IMG/VR virus record: IMGVR_UViG_3300030104_000417
Coordinates: 1 to 29,953 of that record
Reading direction: 5' to 3' (one strand)
Length of the DNA stretch: 29,953 bases
Source of the DNA: a virus
The position numbers and the translations under genes are program-made. Below, one piece after another: positions 1,270-29,953 of this stretch. The first letter of the stretch is position 1, and every line of letters begins with the position of its first letter. Under the pieces are notes generated by a model. The model worked only from the letters and a program-made list of their open reading frames with translations, was not told the origin of the DNA and made no database searches.

Positions 1270-1634
1270 GTTAGTAGTTTTGGTTCAGGTCTGTAATGCA
1301 GAACTGATTTAGGGTTTTCTCCTCTATCAACTTTTGCTCTAGCATCCCATATTAAATCTTTATGCTTTCTTAGCCATTTCATGTATGTTGGCACATTAAG
1401 ATGTATAAAATCTCCGCTTATCTGACTTCTTACTCCTAAATTAAATGCGTTTTGAGCATCTTCAAAGTAAAAATTCTTATAGGTTTTGGCTAAATCGTCT
1501 GCTAAACTTTGAGACATAATCATTATTGTATCTTCTTCAATATTGTTTTGACCTAACTCTATATAAGTTTTACTAATTAAATCTACTGATCCCATCAATA
1601 GTTCTTCTTTTGTCATTGTTTTAATCTGTCTCAT
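1266..1634 (-). CDS. Conserved-looking helical protein, possible replisome accessory
   Basis: The 122-residue product is mostly helical. The middle reads LADDLAKTYKNFYFEDAQNAF, then LGVRSQISGDFIHLNV and KWLRKHKDL. A similar layout (short helices, a G-x-R/K-G-x-F turn, L-N-V, then a W-L helix) occurs, as I recall, in small proteins next to DnaD-like or O-like initiators in Bacteroidota phages and prophages. ATG at 1634 overlaps the TAA of the initiator gene (TAATG), so the two are translationally coupled. Neighbourhood suggests a replication accessory such as a helicase loader, but no AAA+ Walker motifs are present and this is inference. It has no cysteines or membrane segments. Confidence 0.55.
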   Translation of the reverse strand: MRQIKTMTKEELLMGSVDLISKTYIELGQNNIEEDTIMIMSQSLADDLAKTYKNFYFEDAQNAFNLGVRSQISGDFIHLNVPTYMKWLRKHKDLIWDARAKVDRGENPKSVLHYRPEPKLLT

Positions 1635-2275
1635 TAGTTAAATTGTTTTCTTAGTTTTTCTTTTACATTCATATTCTTTTGCAAATGAGAATGTATCTTA
1701 CTCATACTGTTATTGTTTTTAGTTTGTCTTTTTTCCCAAGTCCTTACACAAGCCTTCCACGCTTTCATTTTGTTTTTACCTATTTTCCAGTCTTTACTTT
1801 CATAAAAATCGTAAAAAGTTTCTGCATCTATATTATTCTTTCTTTCAGTACAATACTCAGCAATTTCATTAATAGTTGGTTTTTTAAAACGCCCTTTATT
1901 ATTACTATCTGTAAGATTAATATTAATACTTGTATTATTATCCTTAAACTTTTCTTTAATACCCCCCTTGTCGTTTTCTTTAATACCCCCTTTAAGAATA
2001 CTTAAATACCTCCTATCAATTTCTTTAGTACCTCCTTTATATGTATAACTAGATGATACATAGCCATTTATAATTAACTCTTTAATCCATTTAGAAATCG
2101 TTACTATACTCTTTCCATAAAGATTAGAAAAGTATTTGTTAGTTGCAAAGCACTCACCATTCATATTTAGTAGTGCGGTTATTTCAGCATATAAAAGTTT
2201 AGCATTAGCAGTTAGATTTTTATCATATCTAACCTCAGCACTTATTATAGCATAGTAGTTTGGTTGTTGTTTCAT
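1634..2275 (-). CDS. Replication initiator-like protein with N-terminal winged helix
   Basis: Residues 1-80 read like the replication-protein-O/HTH_36 domain: YYAIISAEVRYDKNLTANAK, then LLYAEITALLNMNGECFATN and a second helix (VTISKWIKELIINGYV). This winged helix is common in phage initiators and DnaD/DnaT-like replisome organisers. Residues about 85-125 are a low-complexity linker with repeated KGGxKE peptides, encoded by the spaced DNA repeats listed separately. The C-terminal 80 residues (AETFYDFYESKDWKIGKNKM, a W-rich helix) resemble the C-terminal domain of DnaD/O-like proteins that contact helicase or loader. Expected role: bind the phage origin and recruit host helicase. It is coupled to the gene downstream (TAATG) and lies four bases after the nuclease stop. 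Confidence 0.7.
   Translation of the reverse strand: MKQQPNYYAIISAEVRYDKNLTANAKLLYAEITALLNMNGECFATNKYFSNLYGKSIVTISKWIKELIINGYVSSSYTYKGGTKEIDRRYLSILKGGIKENDKGGIKEKFKDNNTSININLTDSNNKGRFKKPTINEIAEYCTERKNNIDAETFYDFYESKDWKIGKNKMKAWKACVRTWEKRQTKNNNSMSKIHSHLQKNMNVKEKLRKQFN
1901..2035 (-). other. Candidate replication origin inside the initiator gene
   Basis: Four copies of a 12-base word lie at 1955-1966, 1979-1990, 2002-2013 and 2024-2035 (plus strand TTTAATACCCCC twice, then TTAAATACCTCC and TTTAGTACCTCC). Starts are 24, 23 and 22 bases apart, about two helical turns, so all copies face the same side of the DNA. Copy three is read in a different coding frame from the others (it encodes RRYL, the others GGIKE or GGTKE), so protein repeats do not explain it. 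A very AT-rich stretch at about 1901-1954 lies beside the array and could be the unwinding element. The layout copies that of lambdoid O genes, where four iterons and an AT-rich region sit inside the initiator gene. Function is inferred. Confidence 0.5.
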
Positions 2276-2788: not shown

Positions 2789-3063
2789 TAGAATGGTAAA
2801 TCATCATCACCAGTTGTAGATTTAATTTTTTTAGCAGAAGTTTTATTTTCTGTTGGTGGCTCATAATCATTTACATAAGAGTAATGAGTAGCACCTTTTT
2901 CAGATGGTTCTCTTCTTTCTGCAATCACCATAGAAACCCAACCATTCTTTGAGTTTTCTTGTAGTGCATCCATTTTAAAGTTTGCAACCATCATTGACCC
3001 AAACTTTGTTTCAATGTTTTTAATGCTACTAGGCAAGTAGACTTTCTCTTTCTTTTCTTTCAT
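2788..3063 (-). CDS. Mini single-stranded DNA-binding-like protein with DDDLPF tail
   Basis: The product is only 91 residues, against 110-180 for normal SSB. It ends in G-DDDLPF, the acidic tip by which bacterial SSBs contact partner proteins; DDLPF endings are typical of Bacteroidota SSB. A flexible lysine/threonine linker (about 68-85) precedes the tip. Residues 8-65 contain short strand-like segments (KVYLPSSIKNIETKFGSMMV, then WVSMVIAERREP) with W42 and several aromatics that could form a reduced OB-like fold. Likely role: coat ssDNA and recruit host replication and repair proteins through the tip. The start overlaps the end of the DnaA-domain gene by 35 bases, and the stop overlaps the nuclease start. 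Binding activity is inferred from the tail and context. Confidence 0.6.
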   Translation of the reverse strand: MKEKKEKVYLPSSIKNIETKFGSMMVANFKMDALQENSKNGWVSMVIAERREPSEKGATHYSYVNDYEPPTENKTSAKKIKSTTGDDDLPF

Positions 3064-3466
3064 ACTTTAATTTATTTAGTTTATATAATTTGGTTAATGT
3101 GTTTTTAATTGTTTTTAACTGATCTTCTAAATCTCTTATCTCTTCATCTAATTCAACTTCAATAATTTTATTCTCAACTCTATTAAAATTTTGTTTTTCT
3201 ATTTCGTAAGTTTCGTATTCAAATTTAAACTGCTCATGATGATGTATTATAGAGGCATGATGTAAGTTGGTAATCTTTCCAATACTTTTCAAGGTCATAT
3301 CAAACACCTCTCTTAATATGTAAATGTATAATCTTTTAGCCTGAATAATGTTTCTTTTTCTATTTCCTAAAAACATTCTTTCTTTGTCAACATCATATAT
3401 TTCACATATTTCATTTACTATTAAATCGTTATAATAGTCGCTAAATTTTACTCTTCTTCTTTTCAT
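3029..3466 (-). CDS. Stand-alone DnaA domain IV-like DNA-binding protein
   Basis: Residues about 12-80 match the DnaA C-terminal (domain IV) plan: VNEICEIYDVDKERMFLGNR, then KRNIIQAKRLYIYILREVF and SIGKITNLHHASIIHHHEQF. The last part corresponds to the DnaA signature around D-H-T/S-T-V-x-H that reads the DnaA box. No Walker A or B motif exists, so the AAA+ motor is absent. Residues 85-145 form a charged coiled coil (EIRDLEDQLKTIKNTLTKLY) that may give dimers. It probably binds DnaA-box-like sites at phage or host origins, or acts as a transcription regulator. The gene follows a 114-base leader containing large inverted repeats. It overlaps the mini SSB gene downstream, placing it in the replication cluster. 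Confidence 0.65.
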   Translation of the reverse strand: MKRRRVKFSDYYNDLIVNEICEIYDVDKERMFLGNRKRNIIQAKRLYIYILREVFDMTLKSIGKITNLHHASIIHHHEQFKFEYETYEIEKQNFNRVENKIIEVELDEEIRDLEDQLKTIKNTLTKLYKLNKLKYERKERESLLA

Positions 3467-28999: not shown

Positions 29000-29953
29000 T
29001 TAACTAAAATAAACTATTTTACCACTTCCACCCCATATTTCCTTGTTTACAGCCATAACTAAGCAATCTACCATATCATCATGCTTTGCTGCTGGAAATT
29101 TAGTTAATTGGTCTAAAAACTCCTCATTCCATTTTCCATATAACAAACTTACTCTTCCGCTTTCTAAAGAAGCACTAATATCACTTACTCTTGCTACTTT
29201 ATCTTTTGTTGGTGGTTTATCTTCTTTTACATTAAGTCCTGTTTCTCTTATTAGTGTTTGTACAATAGATTTACCAGATGCTTTTGGTTCTACATATATT
29301 CTACTCCTATTTGTATATCCATTCTTCTGTACCCACTCAGGAATAAACTTGACAAGTTCTGGAAACTCTTTCCTAACATTTATACAGTCTACTATCTGCC
29401 ACATATTATCTACATAGGTATATGCTAGTAGTGCCGAAGGGTCATTCTTTTGATTTGCAGTATATGCAGGGTCTATTATAAAATTGACCTTTGCTTCTTT
29501 TTTATATTTATCTATCTTGAACCAATCTCTATGTATCATTCCACTATCTAAGGGTGTTGGTGTTTGTTGTAGTTGCCCTGCATAACCATAAGTACCTAAA
29601 GCATTTTTGTAATCTTCTAAAACTTTTTTGCTGAATCTCTCTTCCCAAAACAAACCAGTTTCTTTATTGTAATATTTTTCTAGTGATTTTGGTTTTATAT
29701 TTCCATCTTCATTTGTTGCAGGAATACATATGTGCTTATAATTTAATCTTGTCTCTTTATCCAACAAGAATCCGCTTAAATCTTCTTCGTGTACTCTTTG
29801 CATTATTATAATCCTCACTCCAATATCCGCTTGGTTAAGTCTTGAGTAGAATGTTGTCCTATACCACTCATTTGCATTATCCCTTTCAGTTGCTGAGTTT
29901 GCCATTTGTGGCGACAAAGGGTCATCCACAATTAAGAAGTCCCCACCTTGACC
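29000..29953 (-). CDS. terL: Terminase large subunit, 5' end beyond window
   Basis: The frame is open to the right edge, so the N-terminal ATPase part is missing. The first visible residues GGDFLIVDDPLSP are the Walker B strand with acidic D-D, followed by a coupling region with FYSRLNQADIGVRIIIMQRV. The C-terminal half is the RNase H-like nuclease: VNFIIDPAYTANQKNDPSAL (first metal aspartate), RIYVEPKASGKS (glutamate), KFPAAKHDDMVDCLVMAVNK (D-D and D). Together these cut and pump the genome into the prohead. The product continues past the edge, so the GTG at 29929 is not a real start. An 83-base gap separates it from the next gene, so the tail genes may have their own promoter. Confidence 0.9.
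   Translation of the reverse strand, partial: GQGGDFLIVDDPLSPQMANSATERDNANEWYRTTFYSRLNQADIGVRIIIMQRVHEEDLSGFLLDKETRLNYKHICIPATNEDGNIKPKSLEKYYNKETGLFWEERFSKKVLEDYKNALGTYGYAGQLQQTPTPLDSGMIHRDWFKIDKYKKEAKVNFIIDPAYTANQKNDPSALLAYTYVDNMWQIVDCINVRKEFPELVKFIPEWVQKNGYTNRSRIYVEPKASGKSIVQTLIRETGLNVKEDKPPTKDKVARVSDISASLESGRVSLLYGKWNEEFLDQLTKFPAAKHDDMVDCLVMAVNKEIWGGSGKIVYFS

Follow-up and report, generated by a model that had tools for sequence, protein, structure and literature searches.

Four phased repeats within the initiator gene of a virus: a probable replication origin whose sites change together with the DNA-reading domain

The gene of a replication initiator in a virus contains four evenly spaced repeats, and this raises the question of whether the repeats are kept for the peptide that they encode or for a function of the DNA itself. 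To our knowledge, few origins are known for phages of marine Bacteroidota. We analysed a 29,953-base IMG/VR virus record (the window, i.e., the whole stretch of DNA), in which an initial annotation had proposed a likely replication origin inside the initiator gene, on the basis of four 12-base words beside an AT-rich stretch. The coordinates of the gene, of its protein domains and of the repeats are collected in Table 1.

Table 1. Features of the initiator locus, in positions of the window
Feature	Position	Strand	Remarks
Initiator gene	1634..2275	-	213 aa: HTH_36 (PF13730) N-domain, intragenic putative origin, C-terminal domain (phrog_15768)
HTH_36 winged-helix DNA-reading domain, residues 19-73	2057..2221	-	Pfam, AlphaFold model and structure neighbours
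Iteron 1, AAAGGAGGTACTAAAGAA	2021..2038	-	codon phase 0; gene offset 237
Iteron 2, ATAGGAGGTATTTAAGTA	1999..2016	-	codon phase differs from that of the other three; gene offset 259
Iteron 3, AAAGGGGGTATTAAAGAA	1976..1993	-	gene offset 282
Iteron 4, AAGGGGGGTATTAAAGAA	1952..1969	-	gene offset 306
AT-rich tract, presumed unwinding element	1895..1951	-	holds AATAATACAAGTATTAATA at 1921-1939
C-terminal domain, residues 128-213	1637..1894	-	occurs with several different N-domains; presumed replisome-recruiting

The encoded protein matches the Pfam model HTH_36 with an E-value of 4.4e-12 (46.1 bits, versus a curated cut-off of 25) and the PHROGs families of replication initiation proteins phrog_19658, 270, 428 and 2880 (best E-value, 1.4e-22), and annotated initiators of cultured phages are among its homologues. 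The link to the O-like family phrog_678 is weak and at the family level (E-value, 1.4e-7). The Pfam scan gave HTH_36 and one sub-threshold match, with no match to RepA_N (PF06970) and none in the C-terminal domain, and NCBIfam gave no match for the protein. In the AlphaFold model, the pLDDT is mostly 74-89 over residues 11-90 and poor elsewhere. The plasmid RepA initiators 4pql, 4pt7, 5kbj and 4pta are among the nearest solved structures of the modeled N-domain (Z-scores 8.5-9.9); it should be noted that LexA and other winged helices score similarly, and the likeness of fold is supportive and not specific. A search of PDB sequences returned a circular tendon repeat protein as the sole match (residues 58-101), which we took as chance. 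Two records with different host labels, PQ554527.1 ("Acinetobacter phage") and PQ283533.1 (Enterococcus phage), gave an identical best match, 54.0% over 113 residues; one of the labels may be wrong.

As judged from sequence likeness, the host of the phage is probably a marine flavobacterium: when sequenced bacterial genomes were searched with the C-terminal domain, a close match came from a Flavobacteriales bin (L242; 72% over 64 residues), and the hosts of cultured relatives are Cellulophaga and Polaribacter. The identifiable phage genes of the window are all on the minus strand. A few genes upstream of the initiator, a 145-aa protein (3029-3466, minus strand) contains DnaA domain IV (Bac_DnaA_C, E-value 9e-13); in the Polaribacter phage P12002L, an annotated DnaA-like gene, weakly similar to that of the window, lies directly upstream of the HTH_36 initiator.

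The four 12-base words of the initial annotation (1955, 1979, 2002 and 2024; 24, 23 and 22 bases apart on the plus strand) were found as described, one copy being in another codon frame. The word itself is real, but it is only the conserved part of a longer site: on the coding strand, the iteron consensus is AAAGGRGGTAYTAAAGAA, present in four copies separated by 22, 23 and 24 bp. A 17-base consensus with up to three mismatches occurs in seven places of the window, compared to 1.02 expected, and no shuffled sequence reached seven. When codons were redrawn synonymously from the phage's own usage, keeping the protein, one of 20,000 redraws gave copies as alike as the real ones (89 of 108 positions; null expectation 69.9, standard deviation 4.8); thus, the likeness of the four copies is beyond what a peptide repeat alone yields. 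Two dyads overlap the repeats, TTTAAG-TATT-CTTAAA (1991-2006) with iteron 2 and TTAAAG-AAAA-GTTTAA (1944-1959) with iteron 4; for the window taken alone, the dyad signal is weak (p = 0.06). A fifth, weak copy (1880-1896; three mismatches, 72 bp from the fourth) was not counted, because codon 127 varies freely (observed/expected, 1.24) and the consensus match is missing in some relatives. We found no second repeat array elsewhere in the window, just two isolated matches with three mismatches (12068 and 28262), and no enrichment of DnaA boxes TTATNCACA (2 in the window versus 2.4 expected).

The stretch adjoining the repeats (1895-1950) is indeed AT-rich, 84% compared to 68% for the window, and its duplex stability is within the lowest 0.3-0.9% of the window, about the lowest 0.5% when 40-nt stretches are ranked; equally AT-rich stretches occur elsewhere in the window. 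The word AATAATACAAGTATTAATA in this tract is common to phages of other phyla. The repeats sit between the DNA-binding domain and the separate C-terminal domain. We infer, from sequence comparison and from published analogues, that the repeats and the AT-rich tract are very probably the replication origin of this phage, placed within its own initiator gene. The GC skew has no switch at the site; it runs monotonically through the window, where it is negative throughout, and through two relatives of 34-36 kb, and it lends the origin reading no separate support.

Initiators often autoregulate, and where the gene of a DNA-binding protein contains sites for that protein, these could serve as operators for the self-repression of its operon, or as a transcription roadblock, instead of as an origin. 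We consider this improbable as a replacement for the origin: four phased sites in the middle of a gene, beside an AT-rich tract, would be an unusual arrangement for operators, and the layout fits that of experimentally studied intragenic origins (PMC5703833, PMC5499656, PMC6022878). Autoregulation may be a second role of the sites.

If the repeats were selected for the protein only, e.g., as the charged linker KGGxKE, synonymous positions within them would be expected to vary as they do elsewhere in the gene. Three of the four copies, in one phase, do encode KGG(T/I)KE; copy 2, in the other phase, encodes DRRYLS, yet its DNA is equally conserved, and two of the spacings, 22 and 23, are not divisible by three. 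The initial annotation had itself held that repeats missing or uneven in close relatives would count against it. Among 80 relatives found in viral contigs, 74 have the four copies at exactly 22, 23 and 24 bp, and copy 2 is again in the other codon frame. The remaining six, which lack the word, are divergent members, of which five were read: in three of them (L058, L075 and L077), GGT anchors are kept at 22/23(/23) bp and the words differ, and the other two (L079 and L080) fall in a class whose repeats are different. One relative (L179) has three iterons, with one 24-bp unit lost, at offsets of about 237-320 of the match.

We calculated synonymous diversity, relative to expectation, for 63 distinct sequences (the window and relatives). 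Outside the repeats, it was 0.67 (codons 1-78) and 0.55 (codons 128-213), compared to 0.038, 0.022 and 0.000 in iterons 2, 3 and 4, respectively, and 0.19 in the AT-rich tract. In iteron 1, conservation is confined to the 3' part, codons 82-85 being near zero and codons 80-81 free. The core iteron codons, when pooled, show 0.019 of the expected synonymous diversity, and none of 100,000 random sets of 22 codons from outside codons 80-127 was as low (minimum, 0.28). Synonymous change in the core of the repeats is thus almost nil, and the earlier proposal that the repeat is kept at the DNA level, beyond the peptide, holds; in the aligned relatives, selection acts on the repeat DNA itself. Amino acid changes point in the same direction, as KGG is replaced by KEG and REG with the purine pattern of the DNA preserved. 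The near-zero synonymous diversity refutes the peptide as the sole cause, and we regard that explanation as highly improbable. The perfect core GGTAYTAAAGAA is present three times at the initiator locus and nowhere else in each of five relatives' records, four of which are 33-36 kb in length. What this selection serves we deduce from position, geometry and published analogues; the kept spacing, the scarcity of synonymous change and the layout all support an origin of replication, as initially proposed.

A constraint at the level of RNA structure, of an overlapping antisense gene, or of internal ribosome-binding sites (GGAGG) could also suppress synonymous change, and here the prospects are very poor. 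The sequence AAAGGAGGT does resemble a Shine-Dalgarno site; however, in the pooled copies the 5' positions that resemble GGAGG are variable, with purines replacing one another (about 1.0-1.6 bits), and most positions of GGTA and AAAG.A are near 2 bits, which is the reverse of the signal expected for ribosome-binding sites. An antisense open reading frame does overlap the repeats (1679-2005), but of 46 relatives tested, 36 have stop codons inside it. The folding z-score is -1.0, with no match in Rfam.

The preferred reading, an origin inside the initiator gene, implies that the sites are recognized by the protein that the gene encodes, and relatives with a different DNA-reading helix bear on this. 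In such relatives the repeat words differ as well, the spacing is almost unchanged, and the AT tract and C-terminal domain are the same. For example, a relative (L115) with a start of the protein resembling that of the window is 58% identical to it over residues 40-70, 38% over the iteron segment, and 81% over the C-terminal domain. In two further classes with different words, synonymous diversity at codons 79-108 was 0.29 and 0.25, compared to 0.8-0.9 upstream; the 23-bp period is clear in class C, and class E gives a weak period signal. Across the sequences compared, the repeat words change together with the DNA-reading part of the initiator. A search with the C-terminal domain alone recovered proteins with a matching C-terminal domain and AT tract, and other N-domains. 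Three of the relatives (L147, L148 and L159) have the C-terminal domain behind an N-domain that bears no relationship to HTH_36, and their linker region contains AACAACT-like repeats; judging by these sequences, they are possibly another type of initiator with its own sites. The C-terminal domain (DFYESK.W..G...M..W....R.WE) also occurs in Bacteroidales, Clostridia, Bacilli, Treponema and other genomes, where several instances are attached to unrelated N-domains.

In cultured phages with HTH_36 initiators (from Firmicutes, Fusobacteria and Cellulophaga), the layout is mostly alike and the words differ. The repeats are 22, 23 and 24 bp apart in Fusobacterium phage FNU4, 22, 24 and 24 bp in Staphylococcus phage SAP71, and 22 and 24 bp in Enterococcus phage B1578, where the last pair is inverted; in Polaribacter phage P12002L, the spacing is 23 bp, with the dyad TTAAAG-AAAA-CTTTAA as in relatives of the window. 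By shuffling, the repeat was significant in 12 of 16 genes tested; the automatic test found no significant repeat in the remaining four of these genes, from cultured phages Cormatin, EfsPF36 and CL1 and from L251. In a set of 29 genes, the iteron region holds an excess of 6-bp dyads whose halves are separated by a 4-bp centre (75, versus 51 in two control regions summed), and the enrichment is limited to this centre length.

When a 22-bp AT-tract word was used as a plain DNA query, at least 120 stretches matched; 77 loci were readable, of which 73 encode an N-domain of the window type. Directly upstream of the word, a significant repeat was detected in 65 of the 77, and in all 65 the period was 21-24, with 14-39 allowed; a period of 22 or 23, i.e., not a multiple of three, was found in 16 of them. 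The automatic test detected no significant repeat in the other 12 readable loci. It should be noted that many of these loci are interrelated (64 distinct N-terminal sequences), and the counts do not represent independent events. The chance placement of a packaging (pac/cos) or recombination site in the initiator gene can practically be dismissed, since, even though phage packaging sites can be repeat-rich and inside genes, the gene of the terminase large subunit is situated at the opposite end of the window (29000-29929), the repeats change jointly with the helix-turn-helix of the initiator, and phages of other phyla also have such repeats in their HTH_36 initiator genes.

These observations suggest, with somewhat better than even confidence, that HTH_36 initiators across several phyla share a modular origin, consisting of about four sites at a near-fixed pitch of 21-24 bp, each a semi-palindrome with a 4-bp A-rich centre, and the AT word AATAATACAAGTATTAATAATA; the helix and the words would be swapped jointly by recombination, while the pitch, the AT tract and the C-terminal domain persist. 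A description of this family-wide pattern could already exist in subscription journals.

The intragenic origin would operate as follows. The winged-helix N-domain would bind the four semi-palindromic sites, probably as one dimer each, and the distance of about two helical turns would align the bound dimers on one face of the DNA. The resulting nucleoprotein complex is predicted to strain and then melt the adjoining AT-rich tract, after which the C-terminal domain would recruit a replicative helicase or primase. The host's enzyme is favored, since neither DnaB nor a DnaC-type loader was found: PF01695 (IstB/DnaC) and PF03796 (DnaB) had no match in the window and four relatives, records that may be fragments and in which a divergent loader could escape detection. 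The lack of such a gene is weak evidence that fits recruitment from the host. The protein segment between the two domains would be mainly a linker, with a sequence dictated by the DNA sites.

The comparative data delimit the putative origin to the base. The exchange of helix and site words at a kept pitch provides natural pairs for decoding protein-DNA recognition by HTH_36, and it would explain how co-infecting phages avoid each other's origins. If the modular design is true, the origin of a phage and its incompatibility group would be readable from sequence alone.

Several known systems resemble the locus to different degrees. The parallel with lambdoid O genes, drawn in the initial annotation, is right with respect to layout: in the GenBank record of lambda, the iterons are 20, 24 and 23 bp apart, inside O. 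Lambda O binds each of the four dyad iterons within O, straining an AT-rich region (PMC6022878). Four dyad iterons in the initiator gene, an AT-rich neighbor, a binding N-domain and a recruiting C-domain are common to both (PMC6022878), the binding and the recruiting being predicted for the window; in contrast, the sequence link is weak, and a lambda P-like loader was not identified in the window. In 80alpha ORF20 and SPP1 G38P/oriL, the origin is in the initiator gene, as predicted for the window. ORF20 of 80alpha is not complementable in trans (PMC5499656), as expected if the origin is within the gene, and the 80alpha record has an annotated rep_origin at gene offset 235-460, a position equivalent to that of the putative origin in the window; unlike in the window, the 80alpha repeats are 30 bp apart, and the proteins have no significant similarity (E-value, 0.11). 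In SAP71, an N-domain of the window type is joined to a C-domain of the 80alpha type.

The initiator gp41 of Cellulophaga phage phi39:1, a cultured marine flavobacterial phage, is a PF13730 protein with 57% identity to that of the window over the N-domain, and its gene has repeats ACCCACGACAAAATTGTC at 21 and 22 bp and an AT tract in the equivalent place. Its repeat word differs, and the phage's own DnaB-like helicase gene follows; the scans of the window and its relatives revealed no such gene.

Plasmid initiators of the RepA_N type (pSK41 and pTZ2162) have a winged-helix N-domain and semi-palindromic direct repeats around an A tract (PMC5703833, PMC7145576). In pSK41, rep itself contains four Rep boxes that are bound by the N-domain of Rep; the origin encodes a dispensable linker segment, and the C-domain binds the host primase (PMC5703833). 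As in the window, the four boxes are central in rep, between the N- and C-domains, and the fold is near that of our N-domain model; the differences are that the C-domain is another one, and that the window protein has no Pfam RepA_N match. In pPR9, a piece of about 500 bp (N-domain and origin) has been exchanged for one whose N-domain is pfam13730; the mini-replicon is capable of autonomous replication and is compatible with pSK41 (PMC5703833). In this hybrid Rep, as predicted for the window, PF13730 reads the DNA, and the initiator domain and the origin are one exchangeable intragenic cassette; unlike the window, pPR9 is a staphylococcal plasmid of a Gram-positive host with a pSK41-type Rep C-domain, and the likeness drawn here is one of domain family and cassette layout. 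By analogy of design, pSK41 Rep and the pPR9 hybrid are the nearest functional parallels of the locus, closer than lambda O.
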